Below are positions 5,113-61,208 of a stretch of 64,000 bases of DNA, piece by piece; position 1 is the stretch's first letter, and the number at the start of each line of letters is the position of its first letter. Source of the DNA: Qipengyuania seohaensis (GTDB taxonomy: Bacteria; Pseudomonadota; Alphaproteobacteria; Sphingomonadales; Sphingomonadaceae); the NCBI RefSeq assembly GCF_002795865.1, contig NZ_CP024920.1, positions 310,001 through 374,000 on the forward strand, read 5' to 3'. The notes under the pieces were generated by a model. It saw only the letters and a list, made by a program, of their open reading frames with translations, was not told the origin of the DNA and did no database searches. The translations under genes were made by a program, and so were the position numbers.

Positions 5113-5208
5113 GGTAGCGGAGGAGGGACACGAATATCTCAAGTAACTCTCAGAAACCTATAGGATGTTCCGAGGTGCTTCCTACCAATAGCCCCATGGA
5201 TACCCCCA
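5113..5208. other. Attachment-like site A (left edge of element 1)
   Basis: GGTAGCGGAGGAGGGA is at 5113-5128. Exactly 74 bp from its first base the paired repeats TAGCCCCA and TACCCCCA begin, at 5189 and 5201 (12 bp apart). The same core, the same 74-bp distance and the same 12-bp repeat spacing recur at 16008 and 41896, while the DNA between is mostly different. The pattern fits a tyrosine-recombinase core plus arm-type binding sites. No gene lies between 5093 and 5394, and the remaining 190 bp shows nothing else recognisable. Confidence 0.6.
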
Positions 5209-16007: not shown

Positions 16008-16103
16008 GGTAGCGGAGGAGGAACATATAGTGAACACTTATCCGCTTGTTTCTATTTATTAATTCTGGCGAACGCCTAAGAAATACCCCCATTGGTACCC
16101 CCA
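16008..16103. other. Attachment-like site B (junction of elements 1 and 2)
   Basis: GGTAGCGGAGGAGGA is at 16008-16022, and the repeat pair TACCCCCA begins at 16084 and 16096. Core-to-repeat distance (74 bp to AATA) and repeat spacing (12 bp) are identical to sites A and C. The bases after the core (ACATATAGTGA) resemble those at site C (AATATAGAGA). On the minus strand the core reads CCTCCTCCGCTACCA, like the 3' end of a tRNA with CCA, though no tRNA body follows. Confidence 0.65.
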
Positions 16104-41053: not shown

Positions 41054-41452
41054 ATGCGTATCGGAGAACTGGCGAAAGCCACCGGCACAAAGGCGGAGAC
41101 GATCCGCTACTACGAGCGCGAAGGCATCCTGCCAGCGGCCGACCGGACGGACAGCAACTATCGCGACTACTCCACCGACCATTTGGCGACACTCACCTTC
41201 GTGCGCCGGGCGCGCGAACTCGGGTTCAGCATGGCACAGGTTCGCGAACTGCTCGCCCTGTCCGATCACGACGAAAAGCCGTGCCTGGATGTCGACCTGC
41301 TGGTCCAGCAACAACTGGCCGAGGTCGAGCGCAAGATCGCCGATCTCTCCGCGCTACGTGACGAGCTGGGACAGATGTTACGGTCCTGCCAGGCGGACAA
41401 GATCGGCGAGTGTCAGATCATCGGGAGCCTGGGGCGCCGTGCCATAGCGTGA
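41054..41452 (+). CDS. MerR-family metal-responsive regulator (CadR/ZntR/PbrR-like)
   Basis: The product is 132 residues. The winged helix MRIGELAKATGTKAETIRYYEREGILP is canonical. The dimer helix and metal loop follow, with cysteines at KPCLDVD, MLRSCQADK and GECQI; the C-terminal pair has the spacing of divalent-metal MerR members such as CadR, PbrR and ZntR. It should bind the dyad at 41027-41047 and activate the divergent efflux operon on binding Zn, Cd, Pb or Co. The exact metal cannot be assigned. Confidence 0.9.
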   Translation: MRIGELAKATGTKAETIRYYEREGILPAADRTDSNYRDYSTDHLATLTFVRRARELGFSMAQVRELLALSDHDEKPCLDVDLLVQQQLAEVERKIADLSALRDELGQMLRSCQADKIGECQIIGSLGRRAIA

Positions 41453-41895
41453 GGGCCCAACGGACGTCCGGTTTCGGGCGTTAAAGGGAAGGATTAGAAC
41501 GGCCGAAATGGGGCGCGAAGCGGTCATTCGTACGAGAAGCAGATGCCATTCTCTGCCCCCGCAGACTTGCTTGTGTTCGGATCCCACGCAGGGACTCGAA
41601 CGTAGCCGTGAATTTGGGACCGTTGCGAAGGATCTCGTAAGAGAAGGTCCCCCACAAGCCGTTGCGCTCGCGCGAAAATCCGATGTTCGCCCCGAGTTCG
41701 CGGCTGGGGGTATCACCCGACTTCAATCGGGCCTCAAATACCCCCACAACGGCCCCGGCTTCAAGCGAACACATACGGACGCTTACGGCTCCAAGCGGAC
41801 CGGCGTGGTAGCTCTTCTGTCAATTTAATCAGTGATTTGGATCGAAAATCCGTACGCATACGGACGCAAGCGAACCCATGCGGACGCTATTTCCT
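41453..41895. other. Right end of element 2: repeats and inverted TACCCCCA sites
   Basis: There is no supportable gene here; two overlapping ~100-codon frames look random. TGGGGGTA (41705-41712) and TACCCCCA (41739-41746) form an inverted pair of the same 8-mer found to the right of each attachment core. AAGCGAAC-A/C-CAT-A/G-CGGACGC occurs twice (41763-41782 and 41868-41887, 18 of 20 bases equal), with a third partial copy CATACGGACGC at 41857-41867. These look like recombinase or excisionase binding sites. Confidence 0.55.
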
Positions 41896-41991
41896 GGTAG
41901 CGGAGGAGGGAAATATAGAGAGCATATAACGTGCTGATTTACCTAATAAACTTTTTGAGTCGTCTTGCAAATACCCCCATCAATACCCCCA
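41896..41991. other. Attachment-like site C (junction of elements 2 and 3)
   Basis: GGTAGCGGAGGAGGGA is at 41896-41911, and TACCCCCA begins at 41972 and 41984. The 74-bp distance and 12-bp repeat spacing match sites A and B exactly. AACCCATGCG to the left is shared with site B. The remaining DNA up to 42103 shows no gene. Confidence 0.65.
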
Positions 41992-43367: not shown

Positions 43368-43757
43368 CTAATCGTCTTGCGCCATGTTCTCGTGAGCCGC
43401 CATCTGCTCCATCATGTCATGCATCATCATCATGTGCTGGTGACAGGCCGCCATCATATCGGCGTTGTCCCCCTGCATCATGCCCGCCATGTGTTCCTGC
43501 ATTTTTGCACGATGTTCGGCCATAAGCCTTTGGCGTTCGGCAGGATCGCTCGCCGCGTGGGCCTGCTGCATCAGCGCGCGCATTTCAGCCATCTTCTCGC
43601 GGTGGGCCGTCATGGCCGCCGAATCCTGCATCATATGGCCAGCGTGTGACTGCTGCTGCGCCGCCGCTTGATCCCCGTGGTCATGCTGTTGCCGGGCCAT
43701 TGCCGGGGTGGTTGCCAGGCCGGTGGCGAGCGCGAAAGCTAGAACTGTCAGTTTCAT
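43368..43757 (-). CDS. Periplasmic His/Met-rich protein of the copper regulon
   Basis: The product is 129 residues from the ATG at 43757, with signal peptide MKLTVLAFALATGLATTPAMA. The mature protein is helical and rich in Met, His and Ala: MMQDSAAMTAHREKMAEM, MAEHRAKMQEHMAGMMQ and CHQHMMMMHDMMEQMAAHE. This composition suggests copper/silver binding, similar in idea to Spy/CopK/CopM-type periplasmic metal sponges but not clearly homologous to any. It is preceded by a predicted ECF promoter (43838-43812) and followed by a hairpin. Confidence 0.75.
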   Translation of the reverse strand: MKLTVLAFALATGLATTPAMARQQHDHGDQAAAQQQSHAGHMMQDSAAMTAHREKMAEMRALMQQAHAASDPAERQRLMAEHRAKMQEHMAGMMQGDNADMMAACHQHMMMMHDMMEQMAAHENMAQDD

Positions 43758-43811: not shown

Positions 43812-43838
43812 TACGCAGCCGCCATCTCTTCCCCTTAA
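43812..43838 (-). promoter_or_regulatory. Predicted ECF-sigma promoter, copy 5
   Basis: On the minus strand TTAAGGG (43838-43832), 16 bases, then CGTA (43815-43812). It differs in one base from the TTGAGGG box of the four other copies, with identical spacing. It lies 55 bp before the start of the His/Met-rich gene. Confidence 0.6.
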
Positions 43839-43980
43839 ACAATCCGCAGCAGCGGTGGGGCTGGTGGGCCGAAGCACGGCCGGTTGCAGCGGTGCTGTTT
43901 TTCGGCCACCTTTTTGAGAGAAGCCGATAACGACGAATGGGGAGTATCATGGTGCCAGCAGAGCCGTCGGAGAAGCAGTC

Positions 43981-44268
43981 GTGAGCACGGTCAATGAGAA
44001 CGGCAGCTGGGATATCCCGGAGCCCGATCATGCCGATCTGGTGCAAATGCGCATTCGCCTCATTACTCTCGAGAACATAGTTCTTGGCCTTTTGTCCGGG
44101 GCGAGCGATGAACAGATCGAACAGATTAGGAAACGTGCGGACATGATCGAACCGCGCCCCGATGCGAGCCGGCACCCGCTTACCGAACTGGCAGCAGGTG
44201 ACATGCGGAAATTTCTCAAACGCGCTGCTCGCATGGCCGAGTCGGAGGGCCGCGAAAATCATGACTGA
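43981..44268 (+). CDS. Hypothetical cytoplasmic protein
   Basis: The product is 95 residues from a GTG start. DLVQMRIRLITLENIVLGLLSGASDEQIEQIRKRADM is an amphipathic helix pair, and the rest is also helical and charged, without signal peptide. No family is recognised. A TTTTTGAGAG sequence lies ~67 bp upstream, resembling the -35 of the copper regulon, but without a CGTA at the right distance. The next gene starts 27 bp on. Confidence 0.55.
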   Translation: MSTVNENGSWDIPEPDHADLVQMRIRLITLENIVLGLLSGASDEQIEQIRKRADMIEPRPDASRHPLTELAAGDMRKFLKRAARMAESEGRENHD

Positions 44269-44295
44269 TCCGGGCTTTGGGGCAGCGAAGGCGCT

Positions 44296-44802
44296 ATGCA
44301 GGAAGTGGAAATCCGGCCGCTTGCTATTTGCTGGCGCAGATTTTTCGGGCGTACCTGCAACATGACCAGAACCCATTGGCTGATCCTTATTTGCGGGAGC
44401 CTGATCGCGTTCGTCTGGGAGATTTTCCAGATGCCATTCTTCGAACCGGGTGATCTCGAACCCTTCGAGCGGACCATTCGCTGCGGCATTGCAAGCCTGG
44501 GCGATGGCGTGATCCTGCTGACAGCTTATAGCCTTGCAGGATTACGTGGCGGGCACGCGTGGCTCTGGCAAGCCGCCAAAATGCCCTATGCGATCTATTT
44601 CGGCTTCGGGCTTGTCGTCGCGATCGCCGTCGAAATGATCGCCACATCGCTTCCGGCAAACAGTTTCCTGAGCTGGCGCTACAGCGAGTTGATGCCGCAA
44701 GAGCCAGTGACGGGACTGGCGCTGATCCCGATCGCGATGTGGACGATCGTGCCCGCGCTAACGATCCTTCTGGTCCGCTTTGCCCGAGCCGAACCTGATT
44801 AA
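44296..44802 (+). CDS. Hypothetical four-helix membrane protein
   Basis: The product is 168 residues if started at 44296 (AAGG in a good position), or 146 if at the ATG 44362 right before the first helix. Four helices are evident: WLILICGSLIAFVWEIF, GVILLTAYSLAGL, YFGFGLVVAIAVEMI and LALIPIAMWTIVPALTILL. A conserved-looking ERTIRCGIASLGD loop lies between. No family is recognised. It converges on the PepSY gene at 44816, with only 13 bp between the stops. Confidence 0.6.
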   Translation: MQEVEIRPLAICWRRFFGRTCNMTRTHWLILICGSLIAFVWEIFQMPFFEPGDLEPFERTIRCGIASLGDGVILLTAYSLAGLRGGHAWLWQAAKMPYAIYFGFGLVVAIAVEMIATSLPANSFLSWRYSELMPQEPVTGLALIPIAMWTIVPALTILLVRFARAEPD

Positions 44803-44815
44803 ACTGGGAGCGGCT

Positions 44816-45565
44816 TCAGGGGGCATTCGGCACATGTTTCGCCCGCCGCCTGATCCTGGGAAACCGGTTGGCAAGCAGGACAAAGCCCGAAACCGCGATG
44901 ATTGTCCCGCCGATCCCGAACAGTAGCAGCCACCAGCTGTTGATGCGGTCGCGCTGCGTCCAGTCCATGATATGCAGCCCCCAGATAAAATCGAACAGAC
45001 GCCAGGTGTCGCTGCGGGCAGCGAGCACCGAGCCGCTCGATGCATCGATGTAGACGCGGGTATTGTCCTCATCGCCATAGGTAATCTGCCACGCGGGGAA
45101 CGGACCCCGGAATTCGGTCCCGACAGCACCTTCGATGAGGCGCGTGGTCGCTATGGTGGTTGGTGGCCCCGTCCAAGCATGGCGAGCGATGGCCTGTGCG
45201 CTCGCGCTCGAAAGAGGCGAAAGGAGAGCGCCGCTGTTCGGGTCGCGGAGCGTGACGCTTCCATCGTCCCGACGGATCTCGGTTACTGTCCTGCCGCCGA
45301 CCGCGCGCGTCGCAAGGGAAACCACCCCCTCCCTGCTATCGAGCCACTCGGGCATGGCAGCATTAGCGGGCAGAACCTCCGGTGCGCGCGAAACGACATG
45401 TTCGGACCGGACCTCTTCGATGTCGAGGAACGACATCAGCGCCCCGGTGGCCATCCATAGAAGCACCTGGACGCCGACAAAGACTGCCAGCCATTTGTGA
45501 AGCTTGCTGCCCAGCACATGCAGACGCAGCTTGAAAGAGCGTGTCGCCAATCGGTGTTCCCCCAA
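44816..45565 (-). CDS. PepSY-associated membrane protein
   Basis: The product is 249 residues. It has an N-terminal helix LHKWLAVFVGVQVLLWMATGALMSF and a periplasmic PepSY-like part with FPAWQITYGDEDNTRVYIDASSGSVLA. HIMDWTQRDRINSWWLLLFGIGGTIIAVSGFVLL is the second membrane region, containing the His seen in this family. These proteins are thought to bind heme or help metal reduction at the inner membrane. It is the last gene of the copA-copB operon, six bases after the NTF2-like gene. Confidence 0.8.
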   Translation of the reverse strand: MGEHRLATRSFKLRLHVLGSKLHKWLAVFVGVQVLLWMATGALMSFLDIEEVRSEHVVSRAPEVLPANAAMPEWLDSREGVVSLATRAVGGRTVTEIRRDDGSVTLRDPNSGALLSPLSSASAQAIARHAWTGPPTTIATTRLIEGAVGTEFRGPFPAWQITYGDEDNTRVYIDASSGSVLAARSDTWRLFDFIWGLHIMDWTQRDRINSWWLLLFGIGGTIIAVSGFVLLANRFPRIRRRAKHVPNAP

Positions 45566-45570
45566 TCAAA

Positions 45571-46131
45571 TCAGTTGTTACGCGGCGCTCGTGACGACGA
45601 ATGGTACTGAACGATCTTCCAGCCATCCGCATCATGGGCAAGCACCGAGGTCGCAACGCCTTCGCGGTCGATCACGCGGCCGTCGGCCAGTTCGATCCGA
45701 TAGGTGTACGATTCGCGGCCATACGCCATATGTCCCATCCGGGTGACTGCGAGCGTCGGTTCGCCGAAGGTGAAGCTGGTTATTGCATCGAGTTCCGGTC
45801 CCAGGTGATGCTCCATGTAATACGTGAAGCTGCCTTCCGCCTTGCCGTTTTCGTAAACGAAGGATTCCTCGGCAAACAGCGCGGCCATGGCCTCTGCATC
45901 GCGCGACGTCAGGGCATCCCGATATGATGTCAGAACCGCCTCGGCTTCCGCAACGTCATCATTCATCGCATCCATATGCTCGGCGTGGTTCATGCCCTGC
46001 TCCGTATGGTCCATCTGCGTCGAAGCCGTAGGGTCCGAGTGCGCGGAATGATCCATGGATTGTGCCAGGGCGGGAGTGCCGCCTGCAGCCAAGGCCAGGG
46101 CGACCGCGCTTAGAGATAGTCTTATCCTCAT
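45571..46131 (-). CDS. Secreted NTF2/SnoaL-like protein with Met/His N-terminus
   Basis: The product is 186 residues. The signal peptide LSAVALALAAGGTPALAQ is followed by a Met/His-rich segment (SMDHSAHSDP, MDHTEQGMNHAEHM) like those in CopA and CopB. A DUF4440/SnoaL-like alpha+beta barrel then runs from about residue 60: YRDALTSRDAEAMAALFAEE to DADGWKIVQYHSSSR. In this operon it probably acts as a periplasmic copper-binding protein; enzymatic activity is unproven. Confidence 0.8.
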   Translation of the reverse strand: MRIRLSLSAVALALAAGGTPALAQSMDHSAHSDPTASTQMDHTEQGMNHAEHMDAMNDDVAEAEAVLTSYRDALTSRDAEAMAALFAEESFVYENGKAEGSFTYYMEHHLGPELDAITSFTFGEPTLAVTRMGHMAYGRESYTYRIELADGRVIDREGVATSVLAHDADGWKIVQYHSSSRAPRNN

Positions 46132-46147
46132 TGTATATTTCCTTCTC

Positions 46148-47464
46148 TTAAAACCAGAATCGCATGCCCACGACGTAATTCGTCACGCTAGGGTCTTCCC
46201 CTGCGGCGCGTGCAAAATCGGCACTCTGACCGATCCGCCACTCCTGGGAGACGCCGACATAGGGCGCGAATTCGCGTGCGAACTCGTAGCGAAGACGCAG
46301 ACCTGCCTCGATCCGGTCGAGGCCAGCGCCAATGCCGAGTTCGGGAATATCCTGAGCCGAAAGAGCGATTTCGGCTCGCGGCTGGAGGATCAGCCGCTGC
46401 GTGATGCGCTGATCAAGCTCGCCCTCGAAGCGCGCGGTTACATCACCCTTGTTCGATACGAACGCTGCAACGTCGACCTCGAACTGGTAGGGAGCAATGC
46501 CCTGTATGCCAATGGCAGCATGGGTGCGCTCGGGTCCTGTTAAATCCTGGCGCACACCTGTCTGTAGGTCGAAAAAGGGAGCGATCGCCCGGCTCCAGAG
46601 TGCCTGGACTTCGGCTCCCTCGACAGGCTCACCGAAGCTGCCTTCGCCCTCGGATTTGAACCAGAACTTGTCGATATCACCACCATAATAGCCCTGGATG
46701 TCCCAAAGATATCCATCCACTCCCTCGCGGGCGCGGTATTCGAGCCGGTCGCCCTGAAACCAGAAGCGCATCCCGCCGTCGGTCTCGCGGACAAGTTCGC
46801 GCCGCGCTTCGTTCATGGCTTCCTCGCCCCAGATCGCGACCGCCGCGCGCGCGGGACCGCTCCCGGCTTCGGGAGGAGGCGGCAGCAGCGGGATATCGTC
46901 GTTCGAGCCCATCTGCATCGCCGAATGGTCCATGCCCTGCATATCCTGCGATCCCGTCTGCCCATGGTTCATCTGGCTGTGATCCATCTGCCCATGGTCC
47001 ATCGACGAGTTGCTGGCTTCCGCCTGACCCATGTCGCCTTGGTTCATCTGCGAATGATCCATCGCGCCTTCGGCAGGCGTGCCATGCGGCATCGAGCCAT
47101 GATCCATTCCTTCATGACTCCCGGGTGTAGTCTCCGGACGGGCAGCGTCCATCGGCATTGCCATGCCCGAATGACCATCCTGAGCGGTCGTCGAACCATG
47201 AGACATAGTCGAATGGTCCATCGTCGAATGATCCATGGCAACTTCAGGCTGGGCCACTGGTTCGCAAGCTCCTTCGGCTACCGGGTGCCCCATCGCGCGA
47301 TGGCGCTGGGCTTCTTCTTCGCACTTTGTCTTGGCGTCAGCCTGCGCCTCGGCGCTCTGCTGCGGCTCCGCGGGCGAATGACCGGCATGCTGCGCCGCAG
47401 CGGGGGAGGCGAGAACTGAGCCGACTGCGATCGATGCGAGCAGGCTGGTAATACGAATCTTCAT
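46148..47464 (-). CDS. copB: Copper resistance protein B (outer membrane)
   Basis: The product is 438 residues. After the signal peptide comes a ~150-residue Met/His-rich region with repeats of MDHS, HGQMDHSQM and GMDHS that binds copper. The C-terminal ~230 residues form the CopB/PcoB beta-barrel domain: RYEFAREFAPYVGVSQEWRIG and a terminal Phe (NYVVGMRFWF), as needed for BAM-dependent insertion. It overlaps copA by four bases. CopB works with CopA in periplasmic copper sequestration or export. Confidence 0.93.
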   Translation of the reverse strand: MKIRITSLLASIAVGSVLASPAAAQHAGHSPAEPQQSAEAQADAKTKCEEEAQRHRAMGHPVAEGACEPVAQPEVAMDHSTMDHSTMSHGSTTAQDGHSGMAMPMDAARPETTPGSHEGMDHGSMPHGTPAEGAMDHSQMNQGDMGQAEASNSSMDHGQMDHSQMNHGQTGSQDMQGMDHSAMQMGSNDDIPLLPPPPEAGSGPARAAVAIWGEEAMNEARRELVRETDGGMRFWFQGDRLEYRAREGVDGYLWDIQGYYGGDIDKFWFKSEGEGSFGEPVEGAEVQALWSRAIAPFFDLQTGVRQDLTGPERTHAAIGIQGIAPYQFEVDVAAFVSNKGDVTARFEGELDQRITQRLILQPRAEIALSAQDIPELGIGAGLDRIEAGLRLRYEFAREFAPYVGVSQEWRIGQSADFARAAGEDPSVTNYVVGMRFWF

Positions 47465-49302
47465 GCTTCGCTCCCATCGGGATTGGCGACAGTGACGATC
47501 TGAAACATCCCGGCATGCATGTGGTAGAGAAGGTGGCAGTGGAAGGCCCAGTCGCCCGGCTCGTCCGCCGTCAGGTCGAACTGCGCGCTGCCGCCCGGCT
47601 GCACGTTAACCGTGTGCTTGAGCGGCTGACGATCGGCAGGTGCGCCGTTAACCAGTTCGAAGAAGTGCCCATGCAAGTGGATCGGGTGCGCCATCATCGT
47701 GTTGTTTATCAATTTGACACGCACGCGTTCGTTATAGGCAAAGCGGATCGGCTCGTCGGAGACGGCGGAGAACTTCTTGCCGTCGAACGACCACATATAG
47801 CGTTCCATGTTCCCGGTGAGATGGATTTCCATCCGCCGCGAGGGAGTCCGCCCCTCCTGATGAGGTGTCAGCGAGCGGAGCTTGCGATAGTCGAGGGTGC
47901 GGTGGGGGACATCGGCAAGGCCGATGCCGGGGTCGCCCATACGGTCGACCGGGTTCATCGAGACCATGTCGAGACCGGGCCCGACCTTCACGTCGGGAGG
48001 CAGGAGCGATGTATCGCGCATCTGCATACCTCCCGCCATGCCAGCCATCTCCGCCGAACCGCCATCCATACCGGACATCCCATCCGCGCCAGCCGCTCCG
48101 CTCGATCCGTGGTCCATTCCGGCCATACCGCCGGCGCCATGATCCATGCCGGTCATACCGGCATCGTTGCTGCCAGCCCCGTGGTCCATACCGCTCATGC
48201 CCATATCAGCCATGGTCAGAAGCGGGGGATCGCGCAGCGGCGGAATGGCCGCGCGCGCGCCAGACGCGCTCGCAAGCGTTGCGATCCCCATTCCGGACCT
48301 ATCCACCGACTCGGCCACCAATGTGTACGCCTGCTGCTCACCCGGCGTCACGACGACGTCGTAGGTCTCCGCGACGCCGATCTGGAACTCGTCCACTTCG
48401 ACCGGCTCGACGTTCTGCCCGTCGGCTTGAACGACGGTCATCGGCAGGCCTGGAATGCGGATATTGAAGAAGGTCATGGCCCCGGCATTGATGAAGCGCA
48501 GCCGCACGCGCTCGCCCGGACGGAAGAGATATTCCAGATTGTCGAGCGGGCCATGACCGTTCAGCAGGTAAGTGTAGGCTGGGGCCGACACATCGCTAAG
48601 GTCGGTCGGCATCATACGCATTCTCGCCCACATCCGGCGATCCTCGCCCGAAAGCGGATAGTCGTCGGTCCAGGTATTCATGTTGTAGTTGAAGTAGCCT
48701 TCGCCCTTCTTGAGCTTGTCGAAAATCGTGTGGGGCGACATTTCGCTGAATTCGCTGAGCACCACGATATATTCGCGGTCCGCCTGGACCGGATCGGGTC
48801 CAGCCGGATCCACCACAATGGCGCCGTAATGCCCGGCCTGTTCCTGCAGGCCGCTATGCGAGTGCCACCAGTAGGTGCCCGACTGGCGCACCGGGAATTC
48901 AGCGGTGAAGGTCTCTCCGGGCTTGACGCCGGGGAAGCTTACACCTGGCACCCCGTCGAGTTCGAATGGCACGAGCAGCCCGTGCCAGTGGATCGAGGTG
49001 TCTTCCTCGAGCTGGTTATGGACGTTCAATCGGACGGTCGTGCCTTCCTTCAAACGCAACAACGGGCCGGGGATCGTGCCGTTGACGGCGATGGCGCCGC
49101 CGCGTCTGTTGCCGGTTGCAAAGGCAGACCGCGCGACAGTGAGGTCGATATTCGGCCCGGATACTTCATCCAGCCCTTTGCGGGCGTTTCCTGCAAGGAT
49201 GTCCGCGCCGCGCGCCCAGGCCGGCATGGCACCGGAGAGACCAAGCAGGCCCAGCCCGCTAGCACTTGTTCCAAGGAATCTTCGGCGATTGAGGGCAGGC
49301 AT
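47461..49302 (-). CDS. copA: Multicopper oxidase, copper resistance protein A
   Basis: The product is 613 residues, with a twin-arginine signal NRRRFLGTSASGLGLLGL. The copper-ligand blocks are all visible: IHWHGLLVP, TYWWHSHSGLQEQAG, HPIHLHGHFFEL and HCHLLYHMHAG. Between domains 2 and 3 lies a Met-rich insert with GMSGMDHG-type repeats, the CopA/PcoA hallmark. It oxidises Cu(I) to less toxic Cu(II) in the periplasm. It heads the operon copA - copB - NTF2-like - PepSY (49302 to 44816) behind an ECF-type promoter. Confidence 0.95.
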   Translation of the reverse strand: MPALNRRRFLGTSASGLGLLGLSGAMPAWARGADILAGNARKGLDEVSGPNIDLTVARSAFATGNRRGGAIAVNGTIPGPLLRLKEGTTVRLNVHNQLEEDTSIHWHGLLVPFELDGVPGVSFPGVKPGETFTAEFPVRQSGTYWWHSHSGLQEQAGHYGAIVVDPAGPDPVQADREYIVVLSEFSEMSPHTIFDKLKKGEGYFNYNMNTWTDDYPLSGEDRRMWARMRMMPTDLSDVSAPAYTYLLNGHGPLDNLEYLFRPGERVRLRFINAGAMTFFNIRIPGLPMTVVQADGQNVEPVEVDEFQIGVAETYDVVVTPGEQQAYTLVAESVDRSGMGIATLASASGARAAIPPLRDPPLLTMADMGMSGMDHGAGSNDAGMTGMDHGAGGMAGMDHGSSGAAGADGMSGMDGGSAEMAGMAGGMQMRDTSLLPPDVKVGPGLDMVSMNPVDRMGDPGIGLADVPHRTLDYRKLRSLTPHQEGRTPSRRMEIHLTGNMERYMWSFDGKKFSAVSDEPIRFAYNERVRVKLINNTMMAHPIHLHGHFFELVNGAPADRQPLKHTVNVQPGGSAQFDLTADEPGDWAFHCHLLYHMHAGMFQIVTVANPDGSEA

Positions 49303-49334
49303 AGGGGGCTCCTGAAAATGCGTATACCGTCACA

Positions 49335-49361
49335 TACGCGGTCAGCTGCCCTACCCCTCAA
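49335..49361 (-). promoter_or_regulatory. Predicted ECF-sigma promoter for copAB, copy 1
   Basis: On the minus strand TTGAGGG (49361-49355), 16 bases, CGTA (49338-49335), 33 bp before the copA ATG. The -35 box overlaps the last codons of the ECF sigma gene. A dyad GCGTAT-N8-ATACGC (49320-49339) overlies the -10 and the expected start site. Confidence 0.75.
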
Positions 49362-49917
49362 ACTTTTCGAACCGCTCCTTCAGCCGGTTGCGCGCACGAT
49401 AGATGCGCGTCTCGACGGCTTTCTCGGTGGTGCCGAGCAGCTCGGCAGCCTCGGCCTGGCTGTACCCCTCGACAGTGACCAGCACGAGCGCCTCTTGTAG
49501 GCGCACCGGCAAGCGCCCGATTTCGGCCTGGACCAGCCGCAGCTGTTCGCGGGCTCCGGCAACATTTTCGGGATTAGGGGCATCGTCGGCAACGGCGTCG
49601 GCTTCCCGCCCATCCGGCAAACCAAGGAAGCCAATAACTTTCCTGCGGCGGAGCTTGTCGCGGCACCGGTTGAGAACGATTGTCGTCAAATAGGGACCGA
49701 TGGGCTTGCTCGGATCGAGGCGATGACGTGTCAGCCAGACCGACGCGAGACCGTCCTGAACGACATCTTCGGCCCGCGATGGTGAACCCAGCATGCGCGT
49801 GGCAAGCGCAATCAACCGGGCGATCTCGCTCTCGACGAGAGCTGTGAACGCCCGCTTGTCACCGGCTATCGCCCGCCCGATCAGAGCTTCATCCGAAGTG
49901 TCATCCACCGCTGCCAA
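49351..49917 (-). CDS. ECF RNA polymerase sigma factor (CnrH-like)
   Basis: The product is 188 residues. Region 2 reads ARLIALATRMLGSPSRAEDVVQDGLASVW, and region 4 QEALVLVTVEGYSQAEAAELLGTTEKAVETRIYRARNRLK; both are typical of ECF sigmas. Gene order (anti-sigma, periplasmic sensor, sigma) and its neighbours recall cnrYXH of Cupriavidus. It should recognise TTGAGGG-N16-CGTA, found at its own operon and at four other loci in this window. It lies six bases after the sensor gene. Confidence 0.88.
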   Translation of the reverse strand: MAAVDDTSDEALIGRAIAGDKRAFTALVESEIARLIALATRMLGSPSRAEDVVQDGLASVWLTRHRLDPSKPIGPYLTTIVLNRCRDKLRRRKVIGFLGLPDGREADAVADDAPNPENVAGAREQLRLVQAEIGRLPVRLQEALVLVTVEGYSQAEAAELLGTTEKAVETRIYRARNRLKERFEKFEG

Positions 49918-49923
49918 GGCTGG

Positions 49924-50358
49924 TCAGTCACGCGGATCGCGCGTGAGGGCCGCGGACACTTTCCGGTCGAACTGGAGCTGCTGATCGGAATCGAGAATTT
50001 CCCGCATGTCGAAGACGTGGCGCACGGTCGCTTTTTGCAAATCGCCCATGCGCGCATGCACCTCGTCGATCGCGGCACTGACTTCGGGCCCGTATTCGTG
50101 CTCGGTTTCCATTGCCTGGGCGAGCTGGGCGTTGGCTGCGCGCGCAGAGGCTTCGAGCCTTGCCTGTTCTACCGCGAAACGCGCTTCGAGCGCATCGAGC
50201 CGCTGCTCCTGGTCAGCCGTGAGCGACAGCTCATCGTGCACGAACTGGTGCAGGCCGCCCTCGGCATCGTTGTTGGCCCAGCGATCGGCGGCAAGCGCTC
50301 CTAGGCATCCGGCGAGCGCCGCCAGCAGGACCGCAAGGACAAGGTGAAACTTCTTCAA
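49924..50358 (-). CDS. Periplasmic heavy-metal sensor (CnrX/ZraP-like)
   Basis: The product is 144 residues. An N-terminal anchor/signal LVLAVLLAALAGCLGALAADRW is followed by an all-helical domain: VHDELSLTADQEQRLDALEARF and AAIDEVHARMGDLQKATVRHVFDMREIL. The Leu-x-Leu-Thr-x-x-Gln motif is common to Spy/CpxP/ZraP/CnrX-type proteins, and the His and Met residues could bind metal. In the Cnr model it releases the anti-sigma factor when metal binds. It lies three bases after the anti-sigma gene. Confidence 0.82.
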   Translation of the reverse strand: MKKFHLVLAVLLAALAGCLGALAADRWANNDAEGGLHQFVHDELSLTADQEQRLDALEARFAVEQARLEASARAANAQLAQAMETEHEYGPEVSAAIDEVHARMGDLQKATVRHVFDMREILDSDQQLQFDRKVSAALTRDPRD

Positions 50359-50361
50359 CGT

Positions 50362-50658
50362 CTATGACCCCACATGAAGCAATGCAGCGGGTGACAGGGA
50401 TTCTCCGCCAACGAGGCTCTCGCCAACAATTTCTGTAGGAGCGCCGTTTTCGGACGGCCATCCGCTGGTCCCTGCGCCTGCCGTTAGGCCGACGACAAAC
50501 AGACCGGCGAACAAGGCCATTCTGCGCCGCTGATCGGCAATTTCCGCCAGCTGCCCTGCGCGCTGCCAGACGCCGTTCATGAAGTCGGGCGGCACGTCGC
50601 CAGCCTTCTGCGAGGCCATGGTGCCGAGCATCGCATCGAGTGTCTGATTGTCACGCAT
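50362..50658 (-). CDS. Small membrane anti-sigma factor (CnrY-like)
   Basis: The product is 98 residues with a cytoplasmic N-terminal ~40 residues (DAMLGTMASQKAGDVPPDFMNGVWQRAGQL), one membrane helix MALFAGLFVVGLTAGAG and a ~35-residue periplasmic tail. The size and layout match CnrY-type anti-sigma factors, which wrap the sigma with two short helices. Sequence similarity to any named family is weak, so the call rests on topology and on the sensor-sigma neighbours. It is the first gene of the triad, behind ECF promoter copy 2. Confidence 0.7.
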   Translation of the reverse strand: MRDNQTLDAMLGTMASQKAGDVPPDFMNGVWQRAGQLAEIADQRRRMALFAGLFVVGLTAGAGTSGWPSENGAPTEIVGESLVGGESLSPAALLHVGS

Positions 50659-50688
50659 CCCTTGCTCCTGTCGGTTGCACGGTTCCTA

Positions 50689-50715
50689 TACGCGATGCTT
50701 CGCGCAAACCCTCAA
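50689..50715 (-). promoter_or_regulatory. Predicted ECF-sigma promoter for the anti-sigma/sensor/sigma operon, copy 2
   Basis: On the minus strand TTGAGGG (50715-50709), 16 bases, CGTA (50692-50689), 30 bp before the anti-sigma ATG. Implies autoregulation. It is back-to-back with copy 3, their -35 boxes only nine bases apart. Confidence 0.75.
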
Positions 50716-50724
50716 GTTTCTTTT

Positions 50725-50751
50725 TTGAGGGGTGCGGGTCGGCGACGCGTA
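50725..50751 (+). promoter_or_regulatory. Predicted ECF-sigma promoter for the methyltransferase operon, copy 3
   Basis: TTGAGGG (50725-50731), 16 bases, CGTA (50748-50751), 55 bp before the methyltransferase ATG. The T6 run before the box is also present in copy 4. Confidence 0.75.
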
Positions 50752-50806
50752 AGAGGAGTAAGTCAAGCAACAGCGGCAAGTACCAGCGTCGAATAGGAGC
50801 CATGGC

Positions 50807-51493
50807 ATGAAAAGCGCGGCAGTTCCGCCAAAAGAGCGCGCGTTCACTCCGCCGCTGGGCAAAAGCTGGCTCACGCCGTTCTATGATCGCGCGATCGCAG
50901 TCTTTACGCGCGAGAGACGGTGGCGCCGCGCAATCGTCGAAAAGGCCGCATTGCTGCCCGGCGACAAGGTCATCGATGTCGGGTGCGGCACCGGGACCTT
51001 GCTCAGGGCGCTGATGGCCAACTGCCCCGAAGCCGGCTTCATCGGCGTTGAGCCCGACCCCGCAGCGCTGGCTATCGCGCAGCGCAAGTTCGGTGCCGGA
51101 GCCGATATGGTCCGGTGGCACAACGGCTTTCTCGATAGTCTCGAGCTTTCCGACGGCTGGCGGCCAAACAAGATCGTCAGCAGCCTCGTCCTTCACCAGG
51201 TCCCCGTATCGCAAAAGCGCGCGATCCTCGACCAGATCGAGAACCTGCTCGCCCCCGGGGGCATGGCGCTGATTGCCGACTATATGCGGCAGGATGCTCC
51301 ACTCATGCGCGCGCTGTTCCGTTCGAGCGTTCAGCTTCTCGACGGCGTCAAGGACACCCAGCCGAGCGCCGACGGAGCCGTCGAGAAATTGCTCGCCGAG
51401 ATTTTCGCGGACGCCGAATTGCTCGATCGTATCCATACCGCGACCGGAACCATTTCTCTCTGGCGCGGCATCAAGAAAGGCAATGCTCAATGA
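50807..51493 (+). CDS. Class I SAM-dependent methyltransferase
   Basis: The product is 228 residues. GDKVIDVGCGTGTLLRALM is motif I (SAM-binding glycines), EPDPAALAIAQRKF motif II, and LLAPGGMALIADYM motif III of the methyltransferase-11 fold. No metal-binding cysteines stand out. Its substrate is unknown; in metal-resistance operons such enzymes may methylate a metalloid, quinone or lipid. It is the first gene of an operon with DUF411 (four-base overlap ATGA) and a small membrane protein, behind ECF promoter copy 3. Confidence 0.8.
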   Translation: MKSAAVPPKERAFTPPLGKSWLTPFYDRAIAVFTRERRWRRAIVEKAALLPGDKVIDVGCGTGTLLRALMANCPEAGFIGVEPDPAALAIAQRKFGAGADMVRWHNGFLDSLELSDGWRPNKIVSSLVLHQVPVSQKRAILDQIENLLAPGGMALIADYMRQDAPLMRALFRSSVQLLDGVKDTQPSADGAVEKLLAEIFADAELLDRIHTATGTISLWRGIKKGNAQ

Positions 51494-51957
51494 ACCTCAT
51501 GAAAGATTCGAGACCGCTACGCCGTTCGCTGGCGGCCTCGCTCCTCCTCGCCATTGCAGCCTGCTCGAATGCGGCCCAGGCCGCGACCTACACCATGTTC
51601 CGCGACGCAGGGTGCGGCTGCTGTCTCAATTGGGCCGGTCACGTAGAACACGGACTCGAAGCAGAGGTCGCCTCGGTCGACACCGACGACATGGCTGCGC
51701 TCAAGACAGCCAGGGGTGTGTCGCAGGATCTGTGGTCGTGCCACACGATGGAAGTCGATGGCTATATCATCGAAGGCCACGTGCCCGCCGATGCCATCGC
51801 GAAACTATTACGCGAAAGCCCCGAAGGCGTGGCAGGCCTGGCTGTGCCCGGAATGCCGCTTGGCTCGCCCGGAATGGAAGCCGGGGACCGGGTGCAGCCG
51901 TATGATGTCATCGCCTTCGGCTCAGGCGGGCAGCGCGTTTTCGCATCCTACCCGTGA
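51490..51957 (+). CDS. DUF411 metal-binding protein, exported
   Basis: The product is 155 residues. The signal peptide contains SLAASLLLAIAAC (possible lipobox IAAC). The mature part begins YTMFRDAGCGCCLNWAGHVE with the Cys-x-Cys-Cys signature of DUF411. VSQDLWSCHTMEVDGYIIEGHVP gives the conserved Cys-His pair, and GLAVPGMPLGSPGME the Met-rich end. DUF411 proteins are periplasmic copper-binding proteins found throughout copper and silver resistance loci. Confidence 0.9.
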   Translation: MNLMKDSRPLRRSLAASLLLAIAACSNAAQAATYTMFRDAGCGCCLNWAGHVEHGLEAEVASVDTDDMAALKTARGVSQDLWSCHTMEVDGYIIEGHVPADAIAKLLRESPEGVAGLAVPGMPLGSPGMEAGDRVQPYDVIAFGSGGQRVFASYP

Positions 51958-52001
51958 CCATGGACAAGCCATCTCAGCGCCAACTCTAACGGAGGACCAT
52001 C

Positions 52002-52277
52002 ATGTCAGACTATTCGGTCAAAACCTCAATACTGATATGGGGCTGGACACTCAGCCTCTTCCTGCTTTTCAGCTACCTGATCTGCATCGGTTTCGGCCTG
52101 CTCGCGCCCGAACAGGCGCACATGCACGAAGCGTGGGCGCCGCTGCTTCCCGGGTTCGAATGGCTGACCATCTCGGGCTTTCTGGCAGGCGCTCTCGGCA
52201 GCTTTTTGTACGGTTGGTACATCGCGATCATTGGGGTGCCAATGCTGCGATTTTTCCGGAACCGATTCAGGACGTAG
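52002..52277 (+). CDS. DUF5676-like small membrane protein
   Basis: The product is 91 residues with two membrane helices (WTLSLFLLFSYLICIGFGLL and FLAGALGSFLYGWYIAIIGV) joined by HMHEAWAPLLPGF. This layout is that of DUF5676 proteins, which accompany DUF411, CopA ATPases and MauE-type proteins in metal-resistance islands. Function unknown. GGAGG precedes the ATG. Confidence 0.7.
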   Translation: MSDYSVKTSILIWGWTLSLFLLFSYLICIGFGLLAPEQAHMHEAWAPLLPGFEWLTISGFLAGALGSFLYGWYIAIIGVPMLRFFRNRFRT

Positions 52278-52412
52278 CAGATCGGCGGCGATGGCCGCTT
52301 GCCTTGAAACTCGCGGAGCGTTTTTCGGTCGCGCAGGCAGTCCGCTTTAGGCCGCAATTTGCTCGAGCGCCCCGAGCAAAACGCAACTCTCCGGCTTTGT
52401 CCTGAAAGTTTT

Positions 52413-52439
52413 TTGAGGGACGCGGCAAGGGCGAACGTA
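52413..52439 (+). promoter_or_regulatory. Predicted ECF-sigma promoter for the permease-glutaredoxin operon, copy 4
   Basis: TTGAGGG (52413-52419), 16 bases, CGTA (52436-52439), about 50 bp before the TTG start of the permease gene. Same T-rich lead-in as copy 3. Confidence 0.72.
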
Positions 52440-52489: not shown

Positions 52490-53842
52490 TTGCAAGACCA
52501 TGAGCACGAGAATCAAAGCGAAACGGCTGGCTCGATAACCCTGCTGGGCGGCGTTGCGATGGGTACCGGCGTCATGATCGGTGCCGGCATATTCGCGCTG
52601 ACCGGGCAGATCGCCGAGCTCGCCGGTCCGCTCTTCCCCCTGTCTTTCATCGCCGGCGCGCTGGTAACTTCGCTGGCGGCCTACAGCTATATCAAGATGT
52701 CGAACAAATGGCCGTCTTCGGGCGGCATCGCGATGATCTTGCAGAAGGCCTACGGACCCGGCGTCATTGCCGCGTCGGCATCGCTCCTGATGGCTCTGTC
52801 GATGGTCATCAATGAAAGCCTCGTGGCCCGCACCTTTGCGACTTACGCGCTGCGCCCGTTTGGCCTCGAAAGCAGCGGGTGGCTCGTTTCGCTGGCAGCG
52901 CTTGCACTCATCATCTTCGCCTATCTCGTCAATGCAGCGGGCAACAAGTCGGTAAGCGGCTTCTCGCTCATCATGTCCGCCATCAAGATCGGCGGTATCG
53001 CGCTGTTCGCAGTCGCGGCGATCTGGGCCAGCGGATTTTCATCAGGCGCATTTTCGCAGTCCGTTTCGCTGACCAATGCAGAAGCCCTGCTCGCCTCGGT
53101 TGCTTTCTCGATCCTCGCCTTCAAAGGCTTCACCACGATTACCAATAGCGGCGGCGAAATCGTTGACCCGCACAAGAATGTCGGCCGAACCATCATGATC
53201 TCGATAGCCGTCTGCATCGTGATCTATCTGCTTGTCGCAGTGGCGGTGGGTTCGAGCCTGAGCATATCCGAGATCGTCGAGGCGCGCGATTATTCGCTCG
53301 CGGCTGCGGCGCGTCCGGCGCTGGGAGAACTGGGCTTCTATTTCACCGTGGCGATCGCGATCGCCGCCACCACTTCGGGCGTGATAGCGAGCGTATTTGC
53401 CGTGTCGCGCATGCTTGCGATGCTGACCGACATGAAGATGATCCCGCACAGCCATTTCGGCATGAGCGGCGGGATTCGCAGCCACATGCTGGTCTATACG
53501 GTGGTCATTGCCGGGACGCTTGCGGTCCTGTTCGATCTGTCAAGGATCGCCTCGCTGGGCGCCTTCTTCTACCTCGTCATGGATATGCTGGTTCACTGGG
53601 GCGTCCTGCGCCACCTGCGCAAGGAAGTCGGCGCGCGCGCAACAATACTTCTGACAGCGCTCGCGGCAGATGGCGTGGTCCTCGCAGCCTTTACCGCGGC
53701 CAAATTGCGCAGCGATCCTGCCGTTGTCGCCTACGCGGCGATCGGCATCGTCGCAGTCTTCGTGGGAGAATGGATCTACCTCTCGCGCAATTCCGAAGCG
53801 CCCGCATCTCCTGAAGATGATGGGTCAGGAGAGAAAAGGTGA
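52490..53842 (+). CDS. APC-family amino-acid permease
   Basis: The product is 450 residues with twelve membrane helices. Near the N-terminus GTGVMIGAGIFALTGQ is the APC helix-1 signature with the substrate-binding Gly residues. KFKGFTTITNSGGEIVDPHKN-type sequence follows helix 6, where APC members have a conserved amphipathic stretch. The substrate is unknown; in a metal regulon it might import cysteine or glutathione precursors, or histidine. The start codon is a TTG with AGGGGAAAG in front. Confidence 0.82.
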   Translation: MQDHEHENQSETAGSITLLGGVAMGTGVMIGAGIFALTGQIAELAGPLFPLSFIAGALVTSLAAYSYIKMSNKWPSSGGIAMILQKAYGPGVIAASASLLMALSMVINESLVARTFATYALRPFGLESSGWLVSLAALALIIFAYLVNAAGNKSVSGFSLIMSAIKIGGIALFAVAAIWASGFSSGAFSQSVSLTNAEALLASVAFSILAFKGFTTITNSGGEIVDPHKNVGRTIMISIAVCIVIYLLVAVAVGSSLSISEIVEARDYSLAAAARPALGELGFYFTVAIAIAATTSGVIASVFAVSRMLAMLTDMKMIPHSHFGMSGGIRSHMLVYTVVIAGTLAVLFDLSRIASLGAFFYLVMDMLVHWGVLRHLRKEVGARATILLTALAADGVVLAAFTAAKLRSDPAVVAYAAIGIVAVFVGEWIYLSRNSEAPASPEDDGSGEKR

Positions 53843-53954: not shown

Positions 53955-54704
53955 ATGACGACCCGAACAGCGGCGGTCTACCGTATGGTCATGGAGGACC
54001 ATGTCTGTCCCTATGGCATCAAGACGGTCGATCTCCTCACACGGCAAGGCTTCGAGGTCGAGGATCATCACCTGACCAGCAGGGAGGAAACCGACGCATT
54101 CAAGGACAAGCACAACGTCGAGACCACCCCGCAGACCTTTATCGAAGACAAGCGCATTGGCGGCTATGACGATGTCCGCGAGTTCTTCGGCAAGAGCCGT
54201 TCGCAGCCAGAGGAAGGCGAGACCAGCTATCAGCCGGTCATTGCGATTTTCGCGGTCGCGCTGCTGCTCGCGCTAGGGCTGAGCTGGGCGTTTTTTGACG
54301 ATCTGTTCACCGTCCGGGCCGCGGAATGGTTCGTCAGCCTGTCGATGACCCTGCTCGCCGTCCAGAAGCTTCAGGACGTGCGCAGTTTCTCGACAATGTT
54401 CCTCAACTACGATCTGCTCGCACGGCGCTGGGTGCCCTATGGCTTCGTCTACCCGTTCGGCGAAGCCGCTGCCGGCATTCTGATGACCGCAGGCGCGCTG
54501 ACCTGGCTCTCGGCCCCGCTGGCATTGTTCATTGGCACCGTCGGCACTGTCAGCGTCTTCAAGGCTGTCTACATCGACAAGCGTGAGCTCAAATGCGCTT
54601 GCGTCGGTGGGGGCAGCAATGTGCCGCTCGGCTTCGTCTCGCTGACCGAAAATCTGTTCATGATCGGAATGGGTCTGTGGATGGGCGCGAAGCTTCTCGC
54701 ATGA
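53955..54704 (+). CDS. Glutaredoxin-MauE fusion protein
   Basis: The product is 249 residues from the ATG at 53955 (an ATG at 53943 is in frame). Residues 1-80 form a glutaredoxin domain with active site HVCPYGIK (only one Cys, monothiol type) and the TTPQTFIEDKRIGGYDD glutathione-binding segment. From ~95 on there are four membrane helices of the MauE/DoxX type with TLLAVQKLQDVRSF and a terminal pair of cysteines in LKCACVGG. It could pass electrons from glutathione across the membrane to periplasmic disulphides or metal proteins; this is inference. Confidence 0.8.
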   Translation: MTTRTAAVYRMVMEDHVCPYGIKTVDLLTRQGFEVEDHHLTSREETDAFKDKHNVETTPQTFIEDKRIGGYDDVREFFGKSRSQPEEGETSYQPVIAIFAVALLLALGLSWAFFDDLFTVRAAEWFVSLSMTLLAVQKLQDVRSFSTMFLNYDLLARRWVPYGFVYPFGEAAAGILMTAGALTWLSAPLALFIGTVGTVSVFKAVYIDKRELKCACVGGGSNVPLGFVSLTENLFMIGMGLWMGAKLLA

Positions 54705-55114
54705 TCACCGCGCTCCTTCTCGCCGTCTTTCTGTTCCTTGCAGCCGTCGCTTCCCACCTTGCCATTCTGGGTGTCGGCCACCGGCTTCTCGATCGCCGCC
54801 GCGATACGCTGGGAAAGCTTGCAGTCTCGCTACTCGTGCTCGCGTCGCATTTCCTGGTCGCGATCCTTTTTGCCGCAGGTTTCTGGCTGGGCGCGCAATG
54901 GGGCCTGGGAGGGTTCGACAAGGCGCCTTCCATGGACTGGATGGACTACTTCTATTTCTCGCTCATCAACGTGACCACACTGGGCCTGGGCGACATTTAT
55001 CCGACCGAGCACCTGAGAGTTCTCGCCGGCGTCGAGGCCCTTACCGGCTTCGCTCTCATCAGCTGCTCGGCGCAGCTATTCTGGACCATGATGCAAAAAG
55101 GAGAAAAAGCATGA
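54701..55114 (+). CDS. Two-helix ion channel (Ion_trans_2 type)
   Basis: The product is 137 residues. Two long N-terminal helices precede the pore: the selectivity-filter-like TTLGLGDIYPTEHLRVLAG, then a final helix LTGFALISCSAQLFW. The filter is TLGLGD rather than the TVGYGD of potassium channels, so the permeating ion is uncertain. It starts within the stop of the glutaredoxin-MauE gene (ATGA) and overlaps the DUF305 gene in the same way. The three are one translation unit. Confidence 0.75.
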   Translation: MITALLLAVFLFLAAVASHLAILGVGHRLLDRRRDTLGKLAVSLLVLASHFLVAILFAAGFWLGAQWGLGGFDKAPSMDWMDYFYFSLINVTTLGLGDIYPTEHLRVLAGVEALTGFALISCSAQLFWTMMQKGEKA

Positions 55115-55638
55115 CCGAAAAGACCTCCCACTCGGACAAGGGAGGGGGCGGCAGCTACTGGCGATTCATGGCCATGGTGTCGACCTCGACCGTGATCATG
55201 TTCTTCCTGATGTATGCCAACACCTTTACCGTCGATGATCTTTTCTGGAGCGAAACGCGCTTCTGGATGATGTTCGTCATGGGCGCGATGATGATGGTTG
55301 TCATGCTGCTCTTCATGTGGGGCATGTACAAGGACCGGACCAAGAACTTGATCATCCTGGGCGTCGGGGCCTTTGTGTTCGCGCTCGCACTATGGCTGGT
55401 GCGCAGCCAGACCACCGTTGACGATACCGAATATATGGCAGCAATGATCCCGCACCACTCAATCGCGATCATGACCAGCGAACGCGCGAGCCTGAAAGAT
55501 CCTCGCGTGCGCGAACTCGCGCAGGCCATCATTGTCGCACAGCGCCGCGAAATCGCCGAGATGAAATACCTCATAGACGATATCGAGCAGAACGGTCCTC
55601 GAACCGAAGAACGCCTGCCCGAGGAGATGCAGCCATGA
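55111..55638 (+). CDS. DUF305 protein with membrane anchor region
   Basis: The product is 175 residues. Three N-terminal helices (FMAMVSTSTVIMFFLMY, FWMMFVMGAMMMVVMLLFMWGM, LIILGVGAFVFALALWL) are rich in Met. The C-terminal ferritin-like DUF305 domain has EYMAAMIPHHSIAIMTSE and IIVAQRREIAEMKYLIDDI, including the conserved His pair. DUF305 proteins are common in copper and silver loci and are believed to bind Cu(I) or Ag(I). The operon position supports this. Confidence 0.88.
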   Translation: MTEKTSHSDKGGGGSYWRFMAMVSTSTVIMFFLMYANTFTVDDLFWSETRFWMMFVMGAMMMVVMLLFMWGMYKDRTKNLIILGVGAFVFALALWLVRSQTTVDDTEYMAAMIPHHSIAIMTSERASLKDPRVRELAQAIIVAQRREIAEMKYLIDDIEQNGPRTEERLPEEMQP

Positions 55639-56123
55639 ACAAGATAGCTTTCACGGCGCTCATCGCGCTGCCGCTTGCCGCCTGCAATTCGAACACCGCT
55701 CCGGGCAACGACCGCGAAGCCCAGCTCGACCCGCCTGCCACTGCCGCGCCGATCGAGGACGCGGCCAGTGCACTGGCAAATGTTGACCCGGGCCTCATGC
55801 TTCCCGGGACCATGAATGACGCGGACCTTGCTGCTCTGGGCGCAGGACAGGCCTGCCAGTTCCGCCTGACCGAAGTGGCCTTTCCCTCGTTTGTCTATGA
55901 CGGTGACGGGGGCGGAGCGATCAAGATCAATGGCAAATTGATCCCCGTGACCGCCGATGGCCCTGGCAGCTATGCGAACGGCGAGCTTCGGATCAAAACC
56001 CGCATGCTGGATGATGAAGGCGATGCGGGCCTGCAAATGCAGGAGATGATCGTGGCAGCACCAAGAGCCAAGGATGAGTTCGGCTTTTGGGGTTATACCA
56101 CCTGTCCGGCCGACGGAGCCTGA
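55635..56123 (+). CDS. Hypothetical lipoprotein of the DUF305 operon
   Basis: The product is 162 residues, with signal MNKIAFTALIALPLAAC (lipobox LAAC) and a Pro/Ala-rich linker. A beta domain follows with ACQFRLTEVAFPSFVYDGDGGGAIKINGKLIPV, ending FGFWGYTTCPADGA. Two cysteines (GQACQF, TTCP) may form a disulphide. No named family is recognised with certainty, but similar proteins follow DUF305 genes in other Sphingomonads. Overlaps the DUF305 stop by four bases. Confidence 0.75.
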   Translation: MNKIAFTALIALPLAACNSNTAPGNDREAQLDPPATAAPIEDAASALANVDPGLMLPGTMNDADLAALGAGQACQFRLTEVAFPSFVYDGDGGGAIKINGKLIPVTADGPGSYANGELRIKTRMLDDEGDAGLQMQEMIVAAPRAKDEFGFWGYTTCPADGA

Positions 56124-60824: not shown

Positions 60825-61208
60825 TCACAGCTTCGTGATCGACGTGATCACATTGCCTTCAGAACCAGTACGAAATTCAAAGGCAATTCCCTCACCGACG
60901 CTTACTTCGCTGCGCAGTTGCTCATCGGCTTCAAAAGCCATGGTCATCGCAGGCCATTCGATCGCTGGGACCGGACCGTGGTCGACGGTTATCGTGCCCG
61001 CTTCCGCATCGATTGCAGTGACCGTGCCTTCTGCGCTGGCGGTTTGCATTCCGCTGCCAGGTTCCATCATCGGCATATCTTCGCCGTCCATCATCATTTC
61101 ATTTTCTGCCATCGGCATGTCGTTCATCTCGGCAGTGTCCTGGCCAGAATCGCAGGCCGCCAGCGCCAGCGGGAGGGCCAGTAGGCTCATGAGGGTTGTG
61201 GTACGCAT
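60825..61208 (-). CDS. cusF: CusF-like periplasmic copper-binding protein
   Basis: The product is 127 residues. Its signal [11 protein letters not shown] carries a lipobox (LAAC), then a Met-rich linker ([21 protein letters not shown]) and the CusF OB fold: [31 protein letters not shown]. The WPAMTM segment and the upstream His give the Trp/Met/His Cu(I) site of CusF. It delivers Cu(I)/Ag(I) to the CusCBA pump. Its start lies 22 bases inside the cusA gene. Confidence 0.9.

Follow-up and report, generated by a model that had tools for sequence, protein, structure and literature searches.

How a bacterium switches on its copper defences is usually answered, for proteobacteria, by two-component (CusRS/CopRS/PcoRS) or MerR-type (CueR) control. 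The question arises anew for a 64,000-nucleotide stretch of Qipengyuania seohaensis (contig NZ_CP024920.1, positions 310,001 to 374,000 of the forward strand; hereafter the window, whose own numbering is used below), where the copper-resistance genes copA and copB lie behind genes for a probable membrane anti-sigma factor, a periplasmic metal sensor and an extracytoplasmic function (ECF) sigma factor. The original prediction was that five promoters define a copper ECF-sigma regulon here. Our analysis supports this in outline through conservation of the sites in diverged loci, their co-occurrence with the sigma and their likeness to CnrH promoters, and we regard it as highly probable that the locus is a horizontally transferred copper regulon under a transenvelope switch of the CnrYXH type. 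The relationship to CnrYXH, absent from the original prediction, is the key to the mechanism, and the best reading is a copper-linked CnrYXH variant whose promoters have a 16-bp spacer and whose sensor bears additional His/Met residues. No account of such a copper-linked switch was found in the open-access literature searched, judged by titles and the starts of abstracts.

Five promoter sites and their conservation

A pattern scan of the window for TT(G/A)AGGG-N16-CGTA returns five sites, with the boxes exactly 16 bp apart at every one, in the places and on the strands originally proposed. TTGAGGG forms the −35 box of the copAB promoter (49335..49361, minus strand), of the promoter of the anti-sigma/sensor/sigma operon (50689..50715, minus strand), of the divergent methyltransferase-DUF411 promoter (50725..50751, plus strand) and of the permease operon promoter (52413..52439, plus strand). 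The promoter of a gene for a small His/Met-rich protein (43812..43838, minus strand) has TTAAGGG, and close copies of the island have TTGAGGG in its place. The sites had been described as correctly oriented and 30-55 bp before start codons, which the coordinates confirm: CGTA ends 32 bp before the start codon of copA and 30 bp before that of the anti-sigma gene, and the figure is 55 bp for the methyltransferase, 50 bp for the permease and 54 bp for the His/Met-rich gene. The copA −35 box (49355-49361) sits in the final codons at the 3' end of the sigma gene. The proposed −35 consensus fits the sites of the window but is too narrow for the relatives, which at the same positions have TTAAGGG and also the looser NTGAGGG, TCGAGGG and CTAAGGG. 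The divergent −35 boxes at 50689-50751 stand back to back with 9 bp between them; two holoenzymes may hinder one another there, which could couple both operons.

The motif proved not to be equally common elsewhere in the genome. In its 2,942,673 bp, TTRAGGG-N16-CGTA has five matches, which are the five sites of the window, all inside one 8.6-kb cluster, and the reversed control pattern has one match. Only 0.03 sites are expected per window, and none of 100 dinucleotide-preserving shuffles gave five. The whole-genome count, the shuffles and the reversed control rule out a chance origin of the five sites. Further regulon members elsewhere in the genome are rejected, the one-mismatch and core-only scans being at background level. 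With one mismatch allowed, 34 extra motif matches were found against 54 extra for the reversed control, and these are thus background from which only the exact sites stand out; loci are available for 25 of the 34, of which 22 fall within a mechanically called open frame of at least 80 amino acids and three (L011, L012 and L022, viewed as sequence only) lie outside such frames. TGAGGG-N16-CGTA matches six times, the single addition to the five window sites being at 2,210,483 within an open frame, and NRAGGG-N16-CGTA, with 21 matches against 48 for its control, is without genome-wide power.

For the comparison with other bacteria, 80 named loci were found through the sensor by peptide patterns including HxxMG, many of them near-copies, and 39 loci (L091-L110, L206-L221 and L257-L259) were picked by sigma or profile search without selection for HxxMG. 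The 80 named loci hold 282 sites of the form TGAGGG-N16-CGTA, and the next commonest spacer in the range 2-30 is 13, with 29 sites. A similar preference was obtained in 11 genomes with sigma homologues, where 36 of the 140 matches to TTGAGGG-N(2-30)-CGTA have a spacer of 16, while the other spacers average 3.7 matches each. Scanning of 150 bp upstream of the anti-sigma gene on both strands revealed [N][A/G]AGGG-N16-CGTA in 78 of 78 readable loci, accompanied in 75 of them by a divergent site on the opposite strand. The same pattern precedes copA in 77 of 78 readable loci, the exception (L139) having TTGGGGG. Position is kept as well: the permease site lies 49-51 bp before the start in all 58 loci that have one, out of 72, and the site of the His/Met-rich gene lies at 54 bp in 18 of 18 loci (window included in both counts), although the latter form only two groups when regions more than 85% alike are reduced.

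The five sites might nevertheless owe their presence to chance, or have just been inherited with copied DNA, as copies of the island in several genera share 99.8-99.9% identity and are for this reason not independent. We give this explanation hardly any credence. Once upstream regions with more than 85% likeness are set aside (the window being counted), a strict variant of the motif persists in 22 of 22 copA regions and in 19 of the 22 that precede the anti-sigma gene; for the permease the figure is 13 of 22, for the methyltransferase 6 of 9 and for the His/Met-rich gene 2 of 2. The motif also occurs in loci whose sigma has 32-46% identity. Chance or copying predicts motif loss in diverged loci and further copies in the genome; neither was seen on testing.

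The sites also follow the sigma factor across the family. Among 199 genomes, the 34 with a strong sigma homologue (threshold of about 158 bits, set after viewing the results of the homologue search) carry 109 TTGAGGG-N16-CGTA sites (3.2 each; control 15, or 0.44 each), and the other 165 carry the same number (0.66 each; control 58, or 0.35 each), a difference between the two groups with a Mann-Whitney p of 1.2e-14. No strict site was found in three of the 34 (G086, G146 and G158); in G146, GTGAGGG-N16-CGTA precedes both the anti-sigma gene and copA (L105). In one genome, G175, the anti-sigma/sensor/sigma cluster is present in triplicate (L101, L102 and L103), each copy with copA, copB and its own sites.

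Relation to CnrYXH and the proposed switch

The sigma factor (188 amino acids; 49351..49917, minus strand; PF04542 and PF08281) has CnrH as its best solved-structure match (4cxf, E 4.5e-26; the next best has 6e-13) and is 39% identical to it; a search of its own genome at E ≤1e-10 returned the protein itself as the sole match. The sensor (144 amino acids; 49924..50358, minus strand; PF13801) matches NccX (E 1.7e-18) and CnrX (E 2.7e-18) of Cupriavidus, and CnrX is the best match of its predicted structure, with a template modelling (TM) score of up to 0.85 by target length. In an ungapped alignment (4wwb, offset +5), H37, H41, E58, H114 and M118 of the sensor correspond to H42, H46, E63, H119 and M123 of CnrX, which are its metal ligands. 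All five are retained in the window sensor and in 121 of 124 aligned sensors, a set that includes two from Cupriavidus and has several genomes present twice, its rows not being independent. The probable anti-sigma factor (98 amino acids; 50362..50658, minus strand), recognised by gene order, stands in the CnrY position, is of a size suited to a CnrY-like class II anti-sigma, shows a single hydrophobic stretch when judged by eye and, as CnrY does, carries SPxxLL near its C-terminus, but it matches no Pfam family.

From 50658 to 47461 the window reads anti-sigma, sensor, sigma and effector operon, which is the cnrYXHC order of pMOL28 (NC_007972.2). The likeness to CnrYXH (Cupriavidus metallidurans pMOL28, nickel/cobalt) and to NccYXH covers this order, with an effector operon whose promoter lies near the end of the sigma gene, the sensor fold with its five ligands, the homology of the sigma, the −35 box of GAGGG or AAGGG type and the CGTA −10 box. 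The systems differ in their output, which is copAB with other genes here and the RND (resistance-nodulation-division) pump CnrCBA there, in the spacer (16 bp here, 17 bp there), in the five promoters present here, and in H87, H101 and M104 of the window sensor, at which CnrX has P, E and A. Since the operon behind the sigma gene is copAB and not a nickel/cobalt RND pump, the locus appears to work like CnrYXH but as a copper-linked variant of it.

The promoters can be compared directly. CnrH-dependent transcription starts of cnrY and cnrC are reported in PMC9045368; mapped on the sequence, they lie 9 nt past CGTA, with the boxes CAAGGG-N17-CGTA for cnrY and CGAGGG-N17-CGTA for cnrC. A related cluster on another Cupriavidus plasmid has CGAGGG-N17-CGTA at both corresponding places, so that each of the four Cupriavidus promoters read has a 17-bp spacer, against 16 here, and the boxes agree. 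Because the boxes of the window are of the CnrH-promoter kind, their starts are predicted near 43803, 49326, 50680, 50760 and 52448. A spacer of 17 as the mark of a nickel branch was considered and rejected: in a tree built from 40 sigmas, CnrH groups with its Cupriavidus relative in one clade on a long branch, and the three rows with 17-bp sites do not group together. A clean rule that copper means 16 is likewise weakened by plasmid p1 of Caulobacter sp. FWC26 (L223), in which TGAGGG-N17-CGTA stands at 3945-3972 and 7834-7861 before genes for a copper-binding protein and a heavy-metal P-type ATPase; at this locus no 17-bp site was found before the anti-sigma gene, and the related sensor-sigma operon is not followed by copAB.

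The motif could also be read as an operator for a transcription factor of the CueR/MerR or CopR type and not as a sigma promoter, given the MerR-family gene nearby (41054-41452) and the resemblance of the divergent region to an inverted repeat. However, the sites are asymmetric, face their genes, have a fixed spacing of 16 bp and are arranged like the mapped CnrH promoters, and the inverted look at 50689-50751 arises from two promoter sites placed back to back. We consider an operator very improbable.

Under the CnrYXH-type switch that we favour, the membrane anti-sigma, in the position of CnrY, would hold the ECF sigma, in the position of CnrH, inactive until excess copper binds the periplasmic sensor, in the position of CnrX, through a CnrX-like His/Glu/Met site; the copper-bound sensor would then bring about the release of the sigma. 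RNA polymerase with this sigma would read the (T)TGAGGG-type −35 box, the 16-bp spacer and the CGTA −10 box, and start about 9 nt past CGTA. The sigma would raise its own operon, creating a positive feedback, together with copAB, the divergent methyltransferase-DUF411 operon, the permease-glutaredoxin-channel-DUF305 operon and the His/Met-rich protein. Sequence comparison shows the sites themselves, which are unique in the genome, conserved and constant in spacing; it also shows that sensor and sigma are homologous to their counterparts and that the sites are like mapped CnrH promoters. That the five promoters depend on this sigma and that release is the switching step are inferences, the former drawn from homology and gene content.

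Other copper-linked sigma systems are built differently. CorE of Myxococcus xanthus (PMC10141476) is an ECF sigma linked to copper and switches on a multicopper oxidase gene. It shares this kind of target with the window, but senses copper itself by a Cys-rich C-terminal extension without an anti-sigma, whereas the window sigma ends soon after region 4, has no Cys-rich tail and is encoded with a separate periplasmic sensor. SigF/NrsF of Caulobacter crescentus (PMC8224329) is a copper-induced ECF sigma system of an alphaproteobacterium, like the present one in class. A domain scan of 20 window proteins brought up no equivalent of NrsF or of its targets (DUF692, DUF2282, DoxX and a sulfoxide reductase), NrsF itself not being compared. 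SigAb/AabA/AabB of Acinetobacter baumannii (PMC12153292) is a copper-responsive ECF system whose anti-sigma was modelled like CnrY. Its anti-sigma genes lie 3' of the sigma gene, unlike the anti-sigma, sensor, sigma order here, and the direct targets include relA, cysTW and small RNAs, with copA/copB affected only indirectly.

Copper or another metal as the inducer

The copper link comes from the company the switch keeps. Behind the sigma gene lie copA, a multicopper oxidase of copper resistance (47461..49302, minus strand; TIGR01480, 777 bits against a cut-off of 479), and copB, copper resistance protein B (46148..47464, minus strand; PF05275, E 6.5e-86). A copA homologue is found in the neighbourhood of sensor and sigma in 19 of 20 loci, in 79 of the 80 named loci and in 15 of 16 more distant loci (sigma identity 32-46%); in 12 of these 16, copA directly follows the sigma with a site in between, and in three of them (L206, L218 and L221) a gene that looks copC-like by eye lies behind the divergent site. 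Three loci of other alphaproteobacterial families have GAGGG-N16-CGTA around the same operon and before copA, and a conjugative Sphingobium plasmid shows the same arrangement with annotated multicopper oxidase, copB, copC and copD.

The sensors point in the same direction. H101 and M104 are present in 122 of 122 non-Cupriavidus aligned sensors and H87 in 116 of them, and the two nickel-type (Cupriavidus) sensors have P, E and A at the positions of H87, H101 and M104. The conservation of H101 and M104 in the 80 named loci is partly selected, as these were chosen by patterns including HxxMG, but the 39 loci free of this selection also keep both residues. On this comparison H87, H101 and M104 are a candidate copper signature. 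Within the sensor, they may belong to a second copper site or to an interface.

Several observations weigh against the copper regulon outlined above. Of 72 loci, 14 show no site for the permease gene itself, and the methyltransferase gene is likewise without one in 11 of 56, although gene lists suggest that most such genes sit inside longer operons. The 165 genomes without a strong sigma homologue still hold somewhat more sites than the control, perhaps owing to weaker sigma homologues among them. At L104, in G086, the anti-sigma gene has only a degraded TGCGGG box, and copA there has GTGAGGG-N16-CGTA. The anti-sigma is without a detectable family match, a profile scan of the window protein having found no Pfam family. 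In L106, L167 and L220 the sensor and sigma were found without a neighbouring copA homologue; L215 and L219 do have copA, but not directly behind the sigma, and L212 has it at a distance of 6 kb. Lastly, with all five nickel/cobalt ligands of CnrX retained, another inducing metal is compatible with the sequence.

This last point leads to the idea that the sigma regulon is real but responds mainly to another metal (nickel, cobalt, zinc, silver or gold), the copper genes forming part of a general metal response. The five CnrX ligands in 121 of 124 aligned sensors would suit it, as would the RND and CDF (cation diffusion facilitator) metal-efflux genes that the window also contains. Yet no site was found directly before a CusC, CusA or CzcD homologue in the 80 named loci, while copA has one almost everywhere, the sensors differ from the two nickel-type ones at three positions, and a copper-bound structure of CnrX exists (3epv, from its title), by which a CnrX-type site is able to bind copper. 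We judge a different main inducer improbable, and from homology and gene content we infer that copper is the inducing metal.

A broader hypothesis, to which we incline with only modest confidence, is that these loci form a copper-dedicated branch of CnrYXH, predominantly of Sphingomonadales and disseminated through islands and plasmids, in which H101 and M104 with H87 would have given the sensors selectivity for copper, the sigma would read a 16-bp spacer in place of a 17-bp one, and previously unlinked copper-defence genes, including the permease, membrane glutaredoxin, ion channel and methyltransferase, would be placed under its command. In many marine and soil sphingomonads, the copAB operon appears to be run by a sigma switch with kinship to a nickel sensor. 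Set side by side, the related nickel and copper systems lend themselves to studying metal selection by a periplasmic sensor and the reading of spacer length by a sigma, and the promoters could be used as copper biosensors.

The island and the genes behind the promoters

The region 41.9-59.4 kb of the window is 99.8-99.9% identical to loci of Altererythrobacter xiamenensis (L119), Qipengyuania marisflavi (L122) and Pseudopontixanthobacter vadosimaris (L117). The alignment ends at 41861-41895 in eight of eight compared loci reaching there (L117 and L203 are the same contig), and the letters at 41895-41911 repeat the 3' end of a tRNA-Met gene exactly; with this copy at the alignment edge, the island looks like a tRNA-targeted insertion. 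More copies of the tRNA-Met 3' end are found at 5112-5128 and 16007-16023, with one mismatch each, and at genome positions 458110 and 491687 (G000:C1), a pattern which suggests tandem islands using the tRNA-Met gene as insertion site. Relatives of the sensor occur on 79 plasmid records, six of them from Cupriavidus, and 40 of the 79 are predicted to be conjugative; in the class the sensor is rare, being present in 5 of 289 sampled genomes, its own included. This mobile copper-resistance island carries its own sensor, anti-sigma and sigma with five matching promoters, through which genes for copper detoxification, and with them several of unknown role, are very probably switched on as a unit.

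The minus-strand site at 43812..43838 serves the His/Met-rich protein (129 amino acids; 43368..43757, minus strand), for which no Pfam family was matched. On the plus strand, the divergent operon encodes a class I methyltransferase (50807..51493; PF13649) and a DUF411 protein (51490..51957; PF04214). The permease operon, also on the plus strand, consists of an APC-superfamily permease (52490..53842; PF13520), a glutaredoxin domain fused to a MauE membrane domain (53955..54704; PF00462 and PF07291), a small ion-channel protein (54695..55114; PF07885) and a DUF305 protein (55111..55638; PF03713). The gene of a DUF6692 protein (55635..56123, plus strand; PF20402, E 1e-107) overlaps the end of the DUF305 gene and probably belongs to the same operon. 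Since the promoter is specific enough for DNA alone to define a regulon, the permease, methyltransferase, glutaredoxin-MauE, channel, DUF411, DUF305 and DUF6692 proteins acquire a testable role.

An uncertain sixth site, GTGAGGG-N16-CGTA, is located at 60869..60895 on the minus strand, 178 bp upstream of a P-type ATPase gene; it is held uncertain because it lies within the coding sequence of a cusF-like gene. It is kept in five of seven relative stretches, namely those five that contain the neighbouring CusA-like gene, and could be either an intragenic promoter or a case of coding conservation.

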